DNA of 21,072 bases from a virus, in the IMG/VR virus record IMGVR_UViG_3300009537_000212, positions 1 to 21,072 of that record, one strand, 5' to 3'. Below are positions 2,501-12,249 of this stretch, piece by piece. The notes below the pieces were generated by a model, which was given only the letters and a program-made list of their open reading frames with translations, ran no database searches and was not told the DNA's origin. The translations under genes were made by a program, and so were the position numbers. How positions within the stretch are numbered: position 1 is the stretch's first letter; every line of letters begins with the position of its first letter.

Positions 2501-4573
2501 CTATCTCCGTTTTTCAGTTGCGCCGAGCACGATGTTTACCATACTGTCTTCCAGATCCTTGTCGTCAAACGACGATGCTGTCGTATGAATGATTGTGTCT
2601 CCCATGGTAACAGTTGTGGACCCGCCACCGCCTGCCGCCGCTGCAAAATTTGCTCCGCCAGCTCCGCCGGCAATGTCCGGGATCTTCGGACCGTTGGCCA
2701 GACCAGCAGCTTTTTCGATATTTGTCCTGAGAGTATGTAGTTTACCACCACTGTCTACGATATGATCAAACAGCTCAGTAACCCCGAGTTCACGAAATAG
2801 AGAAGCAACTGAACCAATTAGCCACTTAATAAAACTTCCGATCGCCTCCACGATTTTGAAAAGCCACGGAAATTCCGTGTGAAAATATGTGAACGCTTTC
2901 TGAATTTCCTGGGTGAACTCTCCCCAATGCGATATCAAATACCGGATCGGAATGATCGCGAATTGAAGCATTTCCCAAAATGTTGAAAGAACAGGCTCTA
3001 TCCATCCCCAAAACACCTTAACACCATCGGTGATCTCATCCCAATACTTGATTACGAGCGCGAGCGGACCCAGCAGAAACCAGAGGTTCTCCCATGTCCA
3101 CGTGACAGCCGGCTCAATCCAGGACCAGAAACGCTGAACGGCGCCGGAGATATCTTCCCAATAGACAAACATCACACCCAGCAAAGCGATGACCGCAGCA
3201 ATCCCCAAAGCGATCCAACCCCCGGGACCCATACTGGCTAAAGTCCCTGAGGCGCCAAACAATCCGGTAACATTGTCCAGAATAGTTTTGATGGATCCGC
3301 CGATGTAGAGAATCGCTCCACCTAACCCGAGAGCCGCGGCGCTGATTGCAGCCACCGCGCCCGCGATTCGAACCAGTTCAGGATGCTTCTCAGCCATTGC
3401 CGTGATTCGTTCGACCACCGGTGTGAACCACTCGGCCATGGTTTTGAGACCAGGGATCAACGCTTTTCCTATGGTCTCACTCATCAGACCCAGAATGTTT
3501 TTGGTTACCTCCATCAAACCCTTCGAGGTAGAGATTCGGACGTTGAATTCTTTGATAACACTCCCGGCGTACTGAGTTTCATCACCGGCAATTCCCATGA
3601 TCTTGTTGTAGGCATCCATGTTGCCGGTGATCAGTGCGATATCATCCGACCACTCCTGCCCGAAAAGAAGACCGGCCGTCATCGCACGTTTTTGCTTATC
3701 CATGCTGGCTAACTTTTTCAGGAAACTGTCGAGGGCGCCGTTCGCGTCTTTCCCGATCGCAGTCTGCAGGGCTGTAGCATTAAGCCCCATCATTTCCAGA
3801 CCTTGTTGGAATTTTTTTCCCTGGATCGTCGCCGACTGCATTTTCTGAAGCATAACACCAATCCCGCGGCCGGCAACCTCCGGAGGCTTACCCATGGCGA
3901 TAAAGTGCGCCACCAGCCCGGCGACCTTTTCATCCGTTAGACCGAACTGGCGCGAAACACCTCCGACACGGCCCAACGCTTCAACAATACCAGGCGCTTT
4001 TGCTGCAGTGTTGTCAGCGAGAAAGTTGATCAGATCGCCGAGCTTCATCAGCTGCTGTTGCCCTTTTTCCGTGAACGGGATCTGAAACACATTGGACATT
4101 CTGGCGACGCTCTCGCCGGCAGCCTGAGGAACTATATCCCACGCTGTAGCGAACATCGCGATCGACTCGGTAAAACCGGCCAACTCATCAGGGCCTTTAA
4201 CACCGAGTCGCCCGATCTCAGATGCGATTTCAGCCAGACCGGTTTTCGCTATTGGGATCCTCTTTGACATGCCACTCAAAAGCGTATCGAGTTTACTCAT
4301 CCCCTCAGGATTCAGATCCGTTACCTTCCGGATGTCCGCGAACACTTCTTCGATCTCTATTGCCGGTTGAACCAGGTCCCACAGTCCCCTGGATGCCGTC
4401 TTGAAACCTTGAAGCATGTTCATTCCGGCCTGCTGCAACTGCGGTCCGCTGATCACCCGTTCCAGGCGTTCAGCGCCGGCAACGACCTGGTTCATATTGG
4501 TGTTGACGGTGTTCAGGACTCTTGAGGCGCCATCGGTGGCGCGAACCAGTATGTCAATGTCGCGATCTGGCAT
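2501..4573 (-). CDS. Tail tape measure protein (TP901-like)
   Basis: At 690 residues this is the longest gene in the window. Residues 1-60 have the heptad-like start of TP901-family tape measures (DILVRATDGASRVLNTVNTN). A core follows with EEVFADIRKVTD and ELAGFTESIAMFATAWDI, then IGKDANGALDSFLKKLASM and the QEWSDDIALITGN block, all typical of this family. Residues about 400-620 hold several Trp-rich hydrophobic stretches (for example GGWIALGIAAVIALLGVMFV), and the C-terminus is Gly/Ala-rich. The protein sets tail length and occupies the tail lumen. At about 0.15 nm per residue, 690 residues predict a tail near 100 nm. Unusually, the chaperone frameshift pair is not directly upstream: lysis-type genes and a LysM fusion separate them. 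Confidence 0.9.
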   Translation of the reverse strand: MPDRDIDILVRATDGASRVLNTVNTNMNQVVAGAERLERVISGPQLQQAGMNMLQGFKTASRGLWDLVQPAIEIEEVFADIRKVTDLNPEGMSKLDTLLSGMSKRIPIAKTGLAEIASEIGRLGVKGPDELAGFTESIAMFATAWDIVPQAAGESVARMSNVFQIPFTEKGQQQLMKLGDLINFLADNTAAKAPGIVEALGRVGGVSRQFGLTDEKVAGLVAHFIAMGKPPEVAGRGIGVMLQKMQSATIQGKKFQQGLEMMGLNATALQTAIGKDANGALDSFLKKLASMDKQKRAMTAGLLFGQEWSDDIALITGNMDAYNKIMGIAGDETQYAGSVIKEFNVRISTSKGLMEVTKNILGLMSETIGKALIPGLKTMAEWFTPVVERITAMAEKHPELVRIAGAVAAISAAALGLGGAILYIGGSIKTILDNVTGLFGASGTLASMGPGGWIALGIAAVIALLGVMFVYWEDISGAVQRFWSWIEPAVTWTWENLWFLLGPLALVIKYWDEITDGVKVFWGWIEPVLSTFWEMLQFAIIPIRYLISHWGEFTQEIQKAFTYFHTEFPWLFKIVEAIGSFIKWLIGSVASLFRELGVTELFDHIVDSGGKLHTLRTNIEKAAGLANGPKIPDIAGGAGGANFAAAAGGGGSTTVTMGDTIIHTTASSFDDKDLEDSMVNIVLGATEKRR

Positions 4574-4866
4574 TATCCAATCACCTTGTAGTGAATGATC
4601 ATCTGTCGTTCCAAGATTCCACCGTTGTCGACCAGGTTGGTTACCTCAATCTTTTTGACGGCCAACGAGCGGCCGGCTATTTTCCTGTTAAGTGAGTTCA
4701 GCACCTTGAATACAGGAAGGTCGTTGATGTTTGGTGCCGCATCCTGATTTTCGAAAGTAAACCTGTAGCTTTTCACCCCATCAACATTCGGATCGAACAT
4801 CACAGCGAACTCCTTTTCAGACCATGCAAGCCATTTTTTCGCGTCTGCTGTGATATCTGTCATCAT
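4573..4866 (-). CDS. Small tail-associated protein, unknown
   Basis: A 97-residue protein starting with a double Met (MMTDITADAKKWLAW). It overlaps the LysM-FN3 gene by an ATGA at 4866-4863 and the tape measure start by TAATG at 4573, so all three are translationally coupled. Visible features are an acidic amphipathic start, an aromatic centre (SYRFTFENQDAAPN) and a beta-rich C-terminus ending ERQMIIHYKVIG. No membrane segment or recognisable domain is seen. Lying between a LysM tail protein and the tape measure, it is probably a tail or baseplate component, but I cannot name a family. Confidence 0.6.
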   Translation of the reverse strand: MMTDITADAKKWLAWSEKEFAVMFDPNVDGVKSYRFTFENQDAAPNINDLPVFKVLNSLNRKIAGRSLAVKKIEVTNLVDNGGILERQMIIHYKVIG

Positions 4867-6503
4867 GCCCCCGGATCCCAGGATCCGCCATTAATTGTTA
4901 TGTTGTCGGCGTTGACGGTATCCGTCAACGTGGTTCCGGATCCGTCCGTATGCGCCCAGTGATTAGTAATCCCCGCGGGAACGTCCGCCGGGTCCACCTC
5001 GTAATCGGTGATTTCCTGCGCCGTCGCCAGGGCCCCCTTCATGACCCAAATCGAACGAGTCCACATGTCGGCGTGATTCCCGCCGCCGATGTCGTCATCC
5101 CTTTCTGCGATCCACAGTGAATCGTTAGCGTTGATTGCGTTCGCAGATGCTGAGCTTATCGAAATTAACGCCGTGGTTGTGTCGTCCACCTTCAGCGTCG
5201 CGTTGCCGTCCCGGTCGACGTTAACGACAGCCGTATGCCAGGCAGTCGTGGGATTCGATAGCGTGATATCCGGGCTTGTGATGTAATTCGTGTTGTCTAT
5301 CCGGATGACAGCCCTTAATTTCTGGGTGTCTGTCCAGTAGATTAACCATCTGTCAACCCCGTCGGAGCAATCCATCAGGAACATAAAGCTGGCCGGTGTG
5401 GACGCTAACTTGAAAGACATCCCGAAACTGAAATCATTGGTCCCAAAATCGAAGCGCGTTGAATGTGCGGCCACGCCGTAGTCGCTTTCTGAAGCCGTCC
5501 ATCTTAACGGTACAACCGAAGAGGTCGTCGTCTCGGACCCGGACAGCGGGGCTGTCTGCTTGTAATTGATGTCAGGACCGGATCCACGGTAGGCATACAC
5601 TTTGAAGGAATATTCCGTGCCGGAAGACAACCCGCTGGCGGTAAAATTCGTCCCCACTCCAACAAACTTTACAGTCCCGTCGCCAAGCGCTTCATCTACG
5701 TTATACACCGTTCCGTCTGACGGGTCCGTGGTTGGGGCTGATCCAGCTTTCATTACGACGATGTATCCATCAGGTGTCGGCGATCCCGTTGAAGCCGTCC
5801 AGGAAACGTCGGTCGAATCCGTATCGGTGTTGGCAAACTGAAGATTTGTCGGGTTGTTAGCGGGTTCAGCAACGGGATCCGTCGCCTGATTTCCCGTGAG
5901 TGGTGTATCTGTCTTGTAATTTCGCTGAGATCCTGTGCCGTTGTAGCTGAATACCGCGAAATGATACGTCGTGTTCGGGTCCAACCCGCTCAAGATTTTC
6001 GAAACAGCTGAACCGGAATGGACCACAGTCGAACTCCCGATCGTGTTTCCTTCAGTATACGTCACACCGTCTGAAGGTTCTGATGCAACAGCCGAGTCGG
6101 CACGCATCAGGACGAGGTATCCATCAGCTCCTCCAGCTGCCGCAGTCCAATCAATAGTCATTCCGATTTCGCCGATGGAAGAAAACTGCAGGCTCGTCGG
6201 TTGATCAGTGGGTTCATCAGCGAGTGTCGGGGCTGTGTAAACCGCGCCCACCTGAAGCCGGTCCGGGTCCAGAATGAGATGGCTGTTTTCCTGCCACCAT
6301 TTCACTTTCCGGAGGTTTACCAGCTTTGGATCCAACTCATCGACCGACGGAATCTCAAGGACAGTGCCCGGGTCCGGCGCCATGCTGGCGTTTTCAGCAG
6401 CTATTCCGTTCCTCGTCGCTACAATCTGCCACGCTCGGACGTCGCCAAGCGTCAGAGCAGCTACCCTGAATAGATTGTCACCTTGTCGAACCACGTATTT
6501 CAT
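4863..6503 (-). CDS. LysM tail protein with two FN3 domains and a LamG-like C-terminus
   Basis: A 546-residue multidomain protein. Residues 1-55 form a LysM module (MKYVVRQGDNLFRVAALTLG ... VLEIPSV), like the short tail protein gpX that binds at the baseplate hub. After a linker come two FN3-type domains, about residues 100-210 (PTSLQF ... SGLDPNTTYHFAVFSYNGTG) and 215-328 (PTNLQF ... SGTEYSFKVYAYRGSG). They share the layout GY(L/I)V(L/V)M with a following PSDG. Residues about 340-546 look like a concanavalin/LamG laminin-type jelly roll (RWLIYWTDTQKLRAVIRID; TAWHTAVVNVDRDGNATLKV). gpX-type LysM proteins are normally 65-80 residues, so this is a strong extension, probably surface-exposed and carbohydrate- or receptor-binding. 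It overlaps genes on both sides by 4 nt. The domain calls are pattern-based. Confidence 0.75.
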   Translation of the reverse strand: MKYVVRQGDNLFRVAALTLGDVRAWQIVATRNGIAAENASMAPDPGTVLEIPSVDELDPKLVNLRKVKWWQENSHLILDPDRLQVGAVYTAPTLADEPTDQPTSLQFSSIGEIGMTIDWTAAAGGADGYLVLMRADSAVASEPSDGVTYTEGNTIGSSTVVHSGSAVSKILSGLDPNTTYHFAVFSYNGTGSQRNYKTDTPLTGNQATDPVAEPANNPTNLQFANTDTDSTDVSWTASTGSPTPDGYIVVMKAGSAPTTDPSDGTVYNVDEALGDGTVKFVGVGTNFTASGLSSGTEYSFKVYAYRGSGPDINYKQTAPLSGSETTTSSVVPLRWTASESDYGVAAHSTRFDFGTNDFSFGMSFKLASTPASFMFLMDCSDGVDRWLIYWTDTQKLRAVIRIDNTNYITSPDITLSNPTTAWHTAVVNVDRDGNATLKVDDTTTALISISSASANAINANDSLWIAERDDDIGGGNHADMWTRSIWVMKGALATAQEITDYEVDPADVPAGITNHWAHTDGSGTTLTDTVNADNITINGGSWDPGA

Positions 6504-6721: not shown

Positions 6722-7068
6722 GGCCAGGATACCTTTGTCAAAAGGAAAATGATGGCTGTCACCAAGCCGCCAACGATAGGGATAAACGTCATAATCAGGG
6801 TGGCGTTTTTCCCGATTTTGGCCTGGAGTTTGTCCAGGTTTTCGGGGGCCTTGCCCATGGCGTTCCAGATAATCGATTTAAACTCTTCGGAATAACGGAC
6901 GTTCACCTGTCTGATTTCCTTAAAGATCTCACTGTTTTTTTCAGAGATCTTTTCCAGTTGGGTCAGGATTTTCCTGTCAATATCGATCAAATCCCGGATC
7001 ATCTGCTCGATTTTTTCATCCATAAATCTCCGCCTTGTCTCACCGTTTTTTTCTGTGGATGGCGTCAC
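6718..7068 (-). CDS. Small coiled-coil protein with C-terminal membrane anchor
   Basis: A 116-residue protein. The first 75 residues are charged and helical (IEQMIRDLIDIDRKILTQLE; EKNSEIFKEIRQVNVRYSEE), and one strong hydrophobic segment lies near the end (about 92-112, IMTFIPIVGGLVTAIIFLLT). The GTG start at 7068 forms a GTGA overlap with the holin stop and has GGAGG 9 nt upstream. An internal ATG at 7023 (MDEKIEQ) is an alternative with a short-spaced GGAG. Its place in a run of three small membrane proteins suggests lysis control (a holin partner or antiholin), but no family is recognised. Confidence 0.6.
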   Translation of the reverse strand: MTPSTEKNGETRRRFMDEKIEQMIRDLIDIDRKILTQLEKISEKNSEIFKEIRQVNVRYSEEFKSIIWNAMGKAPENLDKLQAKIGKNATLIMTFIPIVGGLVTAIIFLLTKVSWP

Positions 7069-7628
7069 TCTTTTTTTCCTCCTGGCGCCATCGTTAGCAT
7101 TGTTGTCTTGTCTTTGGACCCCTTGCTTGATCCAAACCAGTAGGCAATCACAGCCACGAAACCCGTGTTGGCCAGCGTGGCCATGAGCATATAAAGCACA
7201 CCGCTCGAGTCTTTCGGGACGCCGTTAATGAGGCAAATCCCCAACATTGTGAAAAACCCGACCACCAAAACCCACGTCAAAACATAGAGATTAACGTCGC
7301 TTTTGCCCGTGGCGCGTTCGTGTTCAATCTGACGTTGCCTGGCGTTCTGCACGTCCGCCAAATATGCCTGCGTTTCCTGAAGCTGGATCCGCTCAAGATC
7401 AACCTTGTGTTCCATCTCAAACTTCTGCAGTTCCACGTACAGTTCCGGATTAGCTTCCAGCATCGAGATTATCTCATCCTCAGAAGCATCCGGACCCAGA
7501 CCAACCATGTTGGCGATGGACTGTCCAACCTTCTTCCCGGCACCGCCGGCGACGACCGATCCCAAGAGTGGCAGCCCTTTGCCCACGAGCACCTTTCCAA
7601 GGCTTTTAAGACCGTCTACGAGACCCAT
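7065..7628 (-). CDS. Holin, resembling the 3-TM gene-transfer/phage holin family
   Basis: A 187-residue protein. The Gly-rich N-terminal part (LGKVLVGKGLPLLGSVVAGG) is followed by MVGLGPDASEDEIISMLEAN, the DAS..E..I...L..NPE pattern of the 3-TM holin family. A charged helix runs through residues 70-105, and two hydrophobic segments lie at about 112-135 (LYVLTWVLVVGFFTMLGICL) and 143-165 (VLYMLMATLANTGFVAVIAY), before a Lys-rich tail. Holins of this type make membrane lesions that release endolysin. The only endolysin-like gene is almost 9 kb upstream, which is unusual. Its start region overlaps the last codons of the frameshifted chaperone reading frame. A run of seven A residues precedes its stop. 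Confidence 0.7.
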   Translation of the reverse strand: MGLVDGLKSLGKVLVGKGLPLLGSVVAGGAGKKVGQSIANMVGLGPDASEDEIISMLEANPELYVELQKFEMEHKVDLERIQLQETQAYLADVQNARQRQIEHERATGKSDVNLYVLTWVLVVGFFTMLGICLINGVPKDSSGVLYMLMATLANTGFVAVIAYWFGSSKGSKDKTTMLTMAPGGKKE

Positions 7629-8066
7629 GTTTTTTCCCGCCTTCCAGTTCTTTTACGAAGTGCAGTTCAGCCAGCAACCGAACAAATGTTTCGCGATCCA
7701 CGTTTTCAGGATCGATCCTGTAGTAGTATCGGATCAGGGCCTTGCCCCGGATCCACGGAGACGTCTTCAGGAGGTTTTGCCACTTCCTGAAGCTCTTACG
7801 AAAAAAGCTTCCTGCACTCCCATCAGATCAGCCAGCGCGTTGGAAGCGTTCATTGGCAGCGCCGGATTCTTCTTGATCAGCTCCCGGACCGCATCTGCGT
7901 CTTCAGCCAGGTCAATCAGCAGCTGCTTGTTCGCCTGGTAAATATTCCTGCTCGCCCGCTGAAAATAGGCTTCAAAATGCTCTTCCTTCGGCTCTTTGAC
8001 GGAGATCTCAGTTTCTTTGACCTTGATAACTCCCGCGCTTTCTTTGGCGGTTTTTACCTCGCTCAT
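7606..8066 (-). CDS. Predicted -1 frameshift product of the tail assembly chaperone (gpGT-like)
   Basis: Reading zero frame from 8066 to the TTC codon at 7802-7800 (89 residues) and then slipping back one base gives a further 64 residues ending at TAA 7608-7606, 153 in all. The extension begins RKSFRKWQNLLKTSPW, contains IRYYYRIDPENVDRETFVRL and ends GGKKHGSRRRS. It looks like genuine protein (amphipathic, aromatic, then a basic tail) and fills the only 138-bp stretch in this region that otherwise has no gene. The -1 frame has no ATG of its own before it and opens after a TGA in the overlap, so it can hardly be expressed except by frameshifting. Its end overlaps the holin start by 23 bp. Confidence 0.65.
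7765..7806 (-). promoter_or_regulatory. Programmed -1 ribosomal frameshift signal
   Basis: Read on the minus strand: slippery heptamer TTTTTTC at 7806-7800, phased T TTT TTC relative to zero frame; a 7-nt spacer GTAAGAG (7799-7793); then a perfect 8-bp stem CTTCAGGA (7792-7785) and TCCTGAAG (7772-7765) with a 12-nt loop. The zero-frame stop TGA (7769-7767) sits inside the 3' arm. Heptamer phase, spacer length and downstream hairpin all match known bacterial and phage -1 frameshift sites. Confidence 0.75.
7767..8066 (-). CDS. Tail assembly chaperone, zero-frame product (gpG-like)
   Basis: A 99-residue acidic/helical protein. The N-terminus is charged and low in complexity (KVKETEISVKEPKEE), followed by helical blocks (HFEAYFQRASRNIYQANKQL; LIDLAEDADAVRELIKKNPA). 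The sequence itself resembles no family strongly. The call rests on architecture: ten codons before its TGA there is a T TTT TTC heptamer in the correct phase, and a 64-codon open frame continues in the -1 register. This is how tailed phages make paired tail-assembly chaperones (gpG/gpGT of lambda, E/E+E' of P2). SD GGAG lies 9 nt before the ATG at 8066. The chaperones bind the tape measure during tail assembly and are absent from the virion. Confidence 0.65.
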   Translation of the reverse strand: MSEVKTAKESAGVIKVKETEISVKEPKEEHFEAYFQRASRNIYQANKQLLIDLAEDADAVRELIKKNPALPMNASNALADLMGVQEAFFVRASGSGKTS

Positions 8067-10668: not shown

Positions 10669-11082
10669 TCAAAGCTCTTTGATCAGACCCATAATCTTAA
10701 ACTCAACATCGACGGTGACCTCGGTGTCACCCTGGGATGCGGATTTGCTCTTCTTGGTGAAGACACAGTCGATCAGTGTGTCGATCGACAGGGGTTGGTC
10801 GTCATTCTTGTAGGAGACAACGATCGGGAAGGGTGGAATCCTCAAGATGCCGCCAACGGCTGCCGCAGCGGCTTTGAGATTGTTATATTCGTGAAGCAGG
10901 AGTGTCACTTTTCCGGCGGCTTTATGGTTGCCCCGCCCGTAGCCGATTGGTTTTGTGCCGCGGCCATAAACCTCGTTCTTTTCGCCCTCTTCATCATACT
11001 CGATGTCGGTGATTCCTTCGAGTGCCAGGCCCAGGACATTGACCTTGATGGATTCCCAGTCGTAGAGTTGACCGTTGATCAT
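10669..11082 (-). CDS. Tail tube protein
   Basis: A 137-residue protein immediately after the sheath gene (27-bp gap), the standard place of the tube gene. Visible features are an N-terminal MINGQLYDWESIKVNVLGLA, then IEYDEEGEKNEVYGRGTKPI and GYGRGNHKAAGKVTLLLHEY. The EKxxVYGxGxxPIGYxxGN segment is characteristic of Mu-like tube proteins, which form the hexameric rings of the inner tube. The C-terminal beta strands DTEVTVDVEFKIMGLIKEL fit the family fold. Length is normal. Confidence 0.8.
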   Translation of the reverse strand: MINGQLYDWESIKVNVLGLALEGITDIEYDEEGEKNEVYGRGTKPIGYGRGNHKAAGKVTLLLHEYNNLKAAAAAVGGILRIPPFPIVVSYKNDDQPLSIDTLIDCVFTKKSKSASQGDTEVTVDVEFKIMGLIKEL

Positions 11083-11109: not shown

Positions 11110-12249
11110 TTAGAGCGCCGGGTTCTTCAATGCGAAACGCAGATTGATCACGCGCGAGACAAAGCGCGGTGTAATGGACACATCGACATTGATTTGCGAC
11201 GTCCCCAGAAAATCCTGCCCCGGATCGATAACAACCATTCGGTCCATCGCTGTGATTTCCTGGGCCGCAATCATTCGATTCAAAGGGACTTCACCTTGAG
11301 CTTCCAGCTCCGCGAGAGCTGACAACAAATCATCGCCGGATGCGGGAAAGTCAGCGTTCAGATTCGGAAGCATCGCGGCTCGGACTTCACGTATCGCTTT
11401 AAACACTGTCCGGACTGTCTCAAGTTTGGCATAATCAGACCCAGCCGCCGCCAATGTGGGCGCATCAGTGATGTAAAATCCTGTGATGCCGGTGATTGTT
11501 CTCGCGGTGATGAACTTCGCGGTGTTCAACGTGTCAAGCTGCGCTTCGGTGTAAGCTTCAAACGTGGGATCCGGGGGAGCAATCGCAACGGCGTTTACGA
11601 TCTGGTTGTACCGGACGTACCCGGGGTTACGCGACACTTTGCTTTTGCCAAGGATCCCCATCATGGCGCCGCCGGCGCGGCCGGTCCATACTTCTCCACG
11701 ACCGTTCACAAAATCGACAAATCCTGCGGAAACACCAACGTACTTTGCAGCGCCCGTATAGGCGCCTGTGAGGGTTGTGATATAAGTCGCGGTGTCGGGC
11801 TCGGCTGCCACATCTTTGGCTTCCATCGTGAAGAAACTCGGACGATGACCTGTTAGCCAGGCATCGGCTTTCGTCTGCAGGCTCGCCACAAACGTTTCGG
11901 CTTGTGGTTCCGGGCAATACACCCCACGGATTTCCTCATTCGCAACGAGCGTGTCGATCGCGGCAAGGATATTCGTTGGAGTCGCATCGGTGGCTTTTAC
12001 AAGCCAGACCTTTTGGGCGCCGTTCTGGATGGCTAACTCGCCATAGGCAGCCAGTGGGTTGTCAGGCACTTTCCCTGTGACGGTAATCGCGCCGAACTCA
12101 TCCAGGATGTCATTGACGCTGGAGAAAGCCTTGGGTACATTGTCTGTGCCCTGGGCCGCGGTGGCTACGATCGCAAAAACGCCGTCCGTGTTCGGTCTGC
12201 CTAACCCGAGACCACCCTCTTTGATGGTTTCAACGACATTTGGAAGCAT
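11110..12249 (-). CDS. Tail sheath protein (DUF2586-like)
   Basis: A 379-residue protein. The start MLPNVVETIKEGGLGLGRPN, then VFAIVATAAQGTDNVPKAFS, NPLAAYGELAIQNGAQKVWL and the C-terminal GTSQINVDVSITPRFVSRVI follow the DUF2586 family, which are contractile tail sheath proteins. The sheath drives tail contraction. Family proteins are about 370-480 residues, so this is a compact version. It lies between the major capsid and tube genes, with no neck or connector genes in between. Its ribosome site (AGGGA) overlaps one arm of a 14-bp palindrome in the 44-bp upstream gap. Confidence 0.85.
   Translation of the reverse strand: MLPNVVETIKEGGLGLGRPNTDGVFAIVATAAQGTDNVPKAFSSVNDILDEFGAITVTGKVPDNPLAAYGELAIQNGAQKVWLVKATDATPTNILAAIDTLVANEEIRGVYCPEPQAETFVASLQTKADAWLTGHRPSFFTMEAKDVAAEPDTATYITTLTGAYTGAAKYVGVSAGFVDFVNGRGEVWTGRAGGAMMGILGKSKVSRNPGYVRYNQIVNAVAIAPPDPTFEAYTEAQLDTLNTAKFITARTITGITGFYITDAPTLAAAGSDYAKLETVRTVFKAIREVRAAMLPNLNADFPASGDDLLSALAELEAQGEVPLNRMIAAQEITAMDRMVVIDPGQDFLGTSQINVDVSITPRFVSRVINLRFALKNPAL

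Follow-up and report, generated by a model that had tools for sequence, protein, structure and literature searches.

The DNA analysed here contains a small open reading frame (ORF) near tail genes whose 3' end overlaps a long open stretch in the -1 frame, which raises the question of whether the locus encodes the two forms of a frameshifted tail assembly chaperone (TAC). The window, the whole stretch that was analysed, is an IMG/VR virus fragment of 21,072 bp from a single metagenomic contig. Judged from the sequence of the locus and of its relatives, positions 8066-7606 very probably constitute a -1 frameshifted, two-form TAC gene. This reading, already proposed in the initial annotation, is strongly supported by homologues of both parts, by the join between them, by the -1 arrangement and by the tail-gene setting.

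The putative slip site and its two reading frames

The features of the window that bear on this question are as follows.

2501..4573, minus strand: tape measure protein (PF10145, phrog_28)
7065..7628, minus strand: holin-like protein (phrog_1544; similar to the ICP1 TeaA holin)
7606..7806, minus strand: putative T-domain extension in the -1 frame, FF and then 64 new codons; stop 7608-7606; motif ALIRYYYRIDP at ~7740-7708; three-helix model
7765..7792, minus strand: hairpin of 8 bp with a 12-nt loop (arms 7792-7785 and 7772-7765), not conserved in relatives
7767..8066, minus strand: zero-frame ORF, putative short form of the TAC (gpG-like), with a DUF6848 domain (PF20941, 29.4 bits; phrog_20303)
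7800..7806, minus strand: slippery heptamer T TTT TTC in zero-frame phase X_XXY_YYZ, seen in the sequence; L135 and L138 carry it at an identical protein position
7817..7821, minus strand: GGGAG, 10 nt upstream of the heptamer, a possible Shine-Dalgarno-type stimulator proposed from sequence
10669..11082, minus strand: tail tube protein (phrog_4579, E 1e-33)
11110..12249, minus strand: tail sheath protein (phrog_907, E 5e-43), the bait for relatives

The zero-frame ORF comprises 99 codons (99-aa product), has AGGAG at 8080-8076, 9 nt ahead of its ATG, and ends with TGA at 7769-7767. The heptamer lies near its 3' end, inside the -1 overlap, and slipping back by a single base there would yield a 153-aa fusion ending at the stop 7608-7606. 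Two features of G/GT-type TACs are thus present, namely a short ORF within a tail cluster that the open -1 frame extends far beyond its stop (99 aa plus 64 codons) and a zero-frame slippery heptamer within the overlap (7806-7800). In the window, the -1 frame contains no ATG, GTG or TTG from its upstream stop (7830-7828) until GTG 7701, and this first start codon falls past the conserved motif ALIRYYYRIDP. The initial annotation had located heptamer, spacer and stem and given the ORF lengths exactly, base for base, and was likewise right that the -1 frame lacks a start codon of its own. As the fusion spans two frames rather than one continuous reading frame, the N and T parts were folded separately; the T part was modelled as three helices with a pLDDT of 87.

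In-phase heptamers of comparable class occur at 0.33% of the codon positions of the window, and an equally strong one is expected in the overlap by chance in ~5% of cases. The heptamer alone is a modest finding and not decisive. In a comparison with dinucleotide shuffles, the folding of the 36 nt immediately behind it beats 99.3% of them and that of all 60 nt only ~94%, and there are 12 perfect 8-bp stem matches on the window strand, several of them overlapping. Because these chance and folding statistics are only modest, it is the homology and comparative evidence that decides the case.

The T domain in relatives

Scanning viral contigs with one protein at a time (fusion, sheath, holin-like, major capsid) turned up no close relative, nor did searching for the fusion in genome contigs and in phage records, so that selection on this exact slip site is not measurable, a point against the TAC reading. 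The window sheath is distantly similar (27-33%) to those of Flavobacterium phages of the Winoviridae. With an alignment of three sheaths as bait, 80 viral loci were obtained, and with one of five sheaths a further 21 loci in bacterial genomes, mostly Bacteroidota; an alignment of 19 sheaths was dropped, being too diverse to scan with. In the phages FPSV-S1 and lotta8-1, the short ORF immediately preceding the tape measure gene bears RYHFKIDPETLSDEDWFKRWGELRFVLKLE or similar, matching RYYYRIDPENVDRETFVRLLAELHFVKELE in the -1 part of the window. A T profile seeded with the window and these two phages matched in 60 sheath-selected loci at E≤0.01, the matches sitting just downstream of an N ORF of about 100-180 aa, in the -1 frame relative to it. 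After refinement, a -1 T domain was found in 97 of the 103 sheath-selected loci. Of the six T-negative loci, five lie on contigs that stop within ~1 kb of the sheath, and the other, L084, carries an N-like ORF and no T domain. Extra loci from a scan with the T domain were left out of this count, since loci chosen by T are no evidence for its frequency.

The overlap contains an in-phase XXXYYYZ heptamer in 86 of the 95 non-redundant members, most often A AAA AAN (79 members); the remainder are G GGA AAC/G, C CCA AAC, C CCT TTA and the T TTT TTC of the window. A canonical heptamer is missing from 9 of the 95, which counts against the TAC reading. Relatives lacking the heptamer or carrying stops in the -1 frame, named in the initial annotation as the observations that would speak against a frameshift, are therefore few on both the T-domain and the heptamer counts. 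At 78 of the 80 A6 sites, the distance to the zero-frame stop is exactly 0 or 3 nt. In the Bacteroidota-type relatives (L002-L130, for example L005:6878, L025:2641 and L016:3236), A AAA AAN sites have the stop after 0 nt (n=39) or 3 nt (n=39) and rarely a hairpin; from this spacing, slippage may be coupled to termination at such sites.

Several side observations were made on these loci. The published annotations of L002 (MK764442.1) and L003 (NC_048829.1) overlook the frameshift, T is unannotated in FPSV-S1, and two papers on Winoviridae say nothing of a tail frameshift. The N part of the Winoviridae-type TAC is seemingly duplicated internally (L002:13280-13804, L003:13043-13582), with similar segments around TAGE/TAGK, as is that of L039. 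One further locus (L004:9539-13932) combines sheath, tube and TAC N/T genes with a nearby DEAD-box helicase, lacks a long tape measure gene and is possibly a tailocin or a remnant.

Alternatives to programmed frameshifting

The two frames could be one continuous ORF split by a sequencing or assembly indel, or by gene decay. The window is a single metagenomic contig, with neither reads nor close relatives for checking, which leaves room for such an error. However, relatives from unrelated samples as well as isolates keep the -1 relation with a heptamer at the junction, and a single continuous ORF was not seen among them. The fusion of the window also aligns without a break to that of L066 from the N part to the T part (phmmer E 4e-11), with the slip residues of both in one alignment column. 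An alignment running through the slip in this way rules out a frame that is open by accident and leaves an assembly indel very unlikely; overall, we give a split ORF hardly any probability. The same continuity of homology across the join argues against T being a separate small protein, made by re-initiation or coupling and never fused. In lotta8-1 it is indeed annotated as a CDS of its own, the hypothetical gp39. In the window, however, no start codon precedes the conserved motif, and in relatives the -1 frame often opens precisely with the heptamer. A separate T protein is thus highly improbable, if marginally less so than a split ORF.

The frame might instead change by transcriptional rather than ribosomal slippage, on the T run of the window, and a homopolymer is present at most sites (T6 in the window, A6-A9 in relatives). 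The same arrangement is nevertheless found, with no long homopolymer, at G GGA AAC, C CCA AAC and T TTA AAG sites, and a run of six T is short for polymerase slippage. We consider this origin as improbable as a split ORF. Ribosomal -1 frameshifting in a two-form TAC gene is the reading that we retain.

The N part and DUF6848

The initial annotation had stated that neither product resembles a recognised family. This does not hold for the N part, which belongs to a known if unnamed Pfam family, DUF6848 (PF20941): the 99-aa form scores 29.4 bits and the fusion 27.6 bits against a curated cut-off of 27, a match only just above that cut-off and to a family without an assigned function. The 99-aa protein also matches phrog_20303, annotated as minor tail protein. 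With an N profile of relatives from which the window was left out, the window scores 17.7 bits, compared with at most 8.0 in 300 shuffles. An alignment that includes the N part of the window matches the solved protein 3fgx (RBSTP2171 from Geobacillus stearothermophilus) with an E of 1.5e-7, and 3fgx is itself a strong DUF6848 member (122 bits). No mention of DUF6848 was found in the papers searched. Foldseek gave nothing significant for the N model against the PDB and viral libraries or for the T model against the PDB, a result weighed against the TAC reading. The N model, with a pLDDT of 67, compares with 3fgx at a Z of 4.2, and with HK97/YqbN-type folds at an E of 2.5 (YqbN, 3klu) and 6.6 (HK97, 2ob9). 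The P2 gpE family PF06158 does not match the window up to an E of 1, the HMMER filters limiting weak matches.

DUF6848 served as a second bait, independent of the T domain. It was found in 10 of 398 genomes of the phylum of the Clostridiaceae assembly G001; it was unmatched in the first five genomes and in 14 control genomes alike, which leaves the controls uninformative. Loci L131-L138 are prophages of this Clostridia-group phylum, and in them the -1 frame is open for 68-71 codons beyond the stop. The heptamer is T TTT TTC in L135 and L138, T TTT TTG in L136, T TTA AAG in L131 and L132, A AAT TTA in L133 and A AAA AAC in L134, with no canonical heptamer in L137. The residues at the slip are GVNQDFF or GTNQDFF in these loci and GVQEAFF in the window. 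Six neighbourhoods were fetched, and all have the order sheath, tube, TAC N part, a gap holding T and a gene of 719-924 aa. The last occupies the place of the tape measure gene, with a sequence match to the window tape measure protein in three of the six. The -1 arrangement, a feature of G/GT-type TACs, is thus kept among homologues reached by the sheath as well as by the DUF6848 route.

Candidate stimulatory elements

In the window, a spacer of 7 nt (7799-7793) separates the heptamer from the hairpin, whose loop covers 7784-7773 and whose 3' arm contains the zero-frame TGA (7769-7767). The two relatives that share T TTT TTC (L135 and L138) have no clear downstream hairpin (folding z above 0), and one is also absent from most A AAA AAN relatives. 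Clear hairpins 5-7 nt past the heptamer are found in L106/L107, L120 and L126, those of L106 and L107 differing by one compensated pair; overall, non-A6 heptamers showed no significant association with downstream hairpins (p 0.14). Of the heptamer and stem for which the initial annotation had suggested looking in homologues, the heptamer is widely held, as counted above, and the stem is specific to the window. The hairpin is not a family trait, which was weighed against the TAC reading, and may help with slippage in this phage.

Gene order around the TAC gene

The TAC gene of the window lies among baseplate, lysis and tape measure genes. It follows the tube gene by 2.6 kb, with baseplate genes between, and precedes the tape measure gene by 3.0 kb (T ends at 7606, the tape measure gene starts at 4573); genes for the holin-like protein, two small proteins, a LysM/fn3 protein and a 97-aa protein lie in this interval. 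In relatives, a gene of ≥420 aa begins ≤250 nt after T in 72 of the 83 non-redundant loci that have one. That a TAC gene usually comes immediately ahead of the tape measure gene is a habit and not a criterion of membership; that the window gene does not adjoin the tape measure gene was counted against the TAC reading, and the distance is an unusual feature of the window. The start of the holin-like gene overlaps the T frame by 23 nt, and such close overlaps with the neighbour on either side speak against a misjoin, if not conclusively so for a single contig.

The 97-aa gene (4573-4866) occupies the usual TAC position immediately before the tape measure gene, and has no convincing family match in PHROGs or Pfam. 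Between the lysis and tape measure genes, positions 4863-6503 encode a protein of 546 aa that begins in LysM-like fashion and also has two fn3 domains and a C-terminal stretch. The holin-like gene has an in-phase A AAA AAA close to its end (7077-7065), followed by a GTGA overlap, and a -1 slip there would join the holin-like protein directly to the next ORF of 116 aa; the AGGAGG just upstream suggests that ordinary re-initiation is likelier. Capsid, protease and tail genes are present. Terminase large subunit and portal were not recognised among the window proteins scanned, and may be missing from the fragment or lie in unscanned ORFs.

Comparison with known chaperones and proposed mechanism

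The lambda slip site is G GGA AAG, in place of the T TTT TTC of the window. In lambda, as proposed for the window, a small tail gene yields an N form and, by a -1 slip close to its end, a rare and longer N-T form (PMC5009743). Both lambda products, gpG and gpGT, attach to the tape measure protein, and their tube subunit is recruited by the T part (PMC5009743). The two systems differ in that they share no family in a Pfam scan and that the window gene is set apart from the tape measure gene. P2 offers a further parallel, having a contractile tail and a T6 heptamer, T TTT TTG, that gives E and E+E' products of 91 and 142 aa (PMC3091744), and T7C-type sites are predicted in P2-like prophages of xanthomonads (PMC3931495). 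The 99/153 aa and T6C of the window fit the P2 pattern closely. The P2 site differs in lacking a hairpin (PMC3091744), E/E' lies between the tube and tape measure genes whereas the window TAC is displaced, and the N part of the window matches DUF6848 and not the Pfam family of P2 E. The Winoviridae phages FPSV-S1 and vB_FspM_lotta8-1 share the -1 T domain with the window, but have a larger N part (175-180 aa) and a different heptamer, A AAA AAG, between the tube and tape measure genes.

Most ribosomes would accordingly be expected to produce the 99-aa N form, while a minority would shift by -1 at T TTT TTC and continue for a further 64 codons, giving the 153-aa fusion with its three-helix T domain. 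On the model of lambda gpG/gpGT, the N part would coat the tape measure protein, the T part would bring tube subunits to it, and neither form would be retained in the virion. What we infer is that ribosomes slip in vivo, how efficiently they do so, that the hairpin or GGGAG might assist them, and what each part binds.

Frameshifted TACs as such are already well known, and the window gene is another example. A broader proposal is put forward tentatively, and we lean slightly against it: a single TAC family, with a DUF6848-like N part and an unnamed three-helix T part, would span phages of Bacteroidota and Clostridia-group hosts. Its slip site would have been replaced repeatedly, with the zero-frame stop coming exactly 0 or 3 nt after it in most Bacteroidota members, which would couple slippage to slow termination, and in the window the gene would have left the tape measure gene and work at a distance. 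The findings provide a likely function for DUF6848 and for the unnamed, short T domain encoded in the -1 frame, which gene callers overlook or split in many phages of Bacteroidota and the Clostridia group. They also offer a natural case of a chaperone gene apart from its tape measure gene, in which to ask whether adjacency is needed for the ratio of the proteins.
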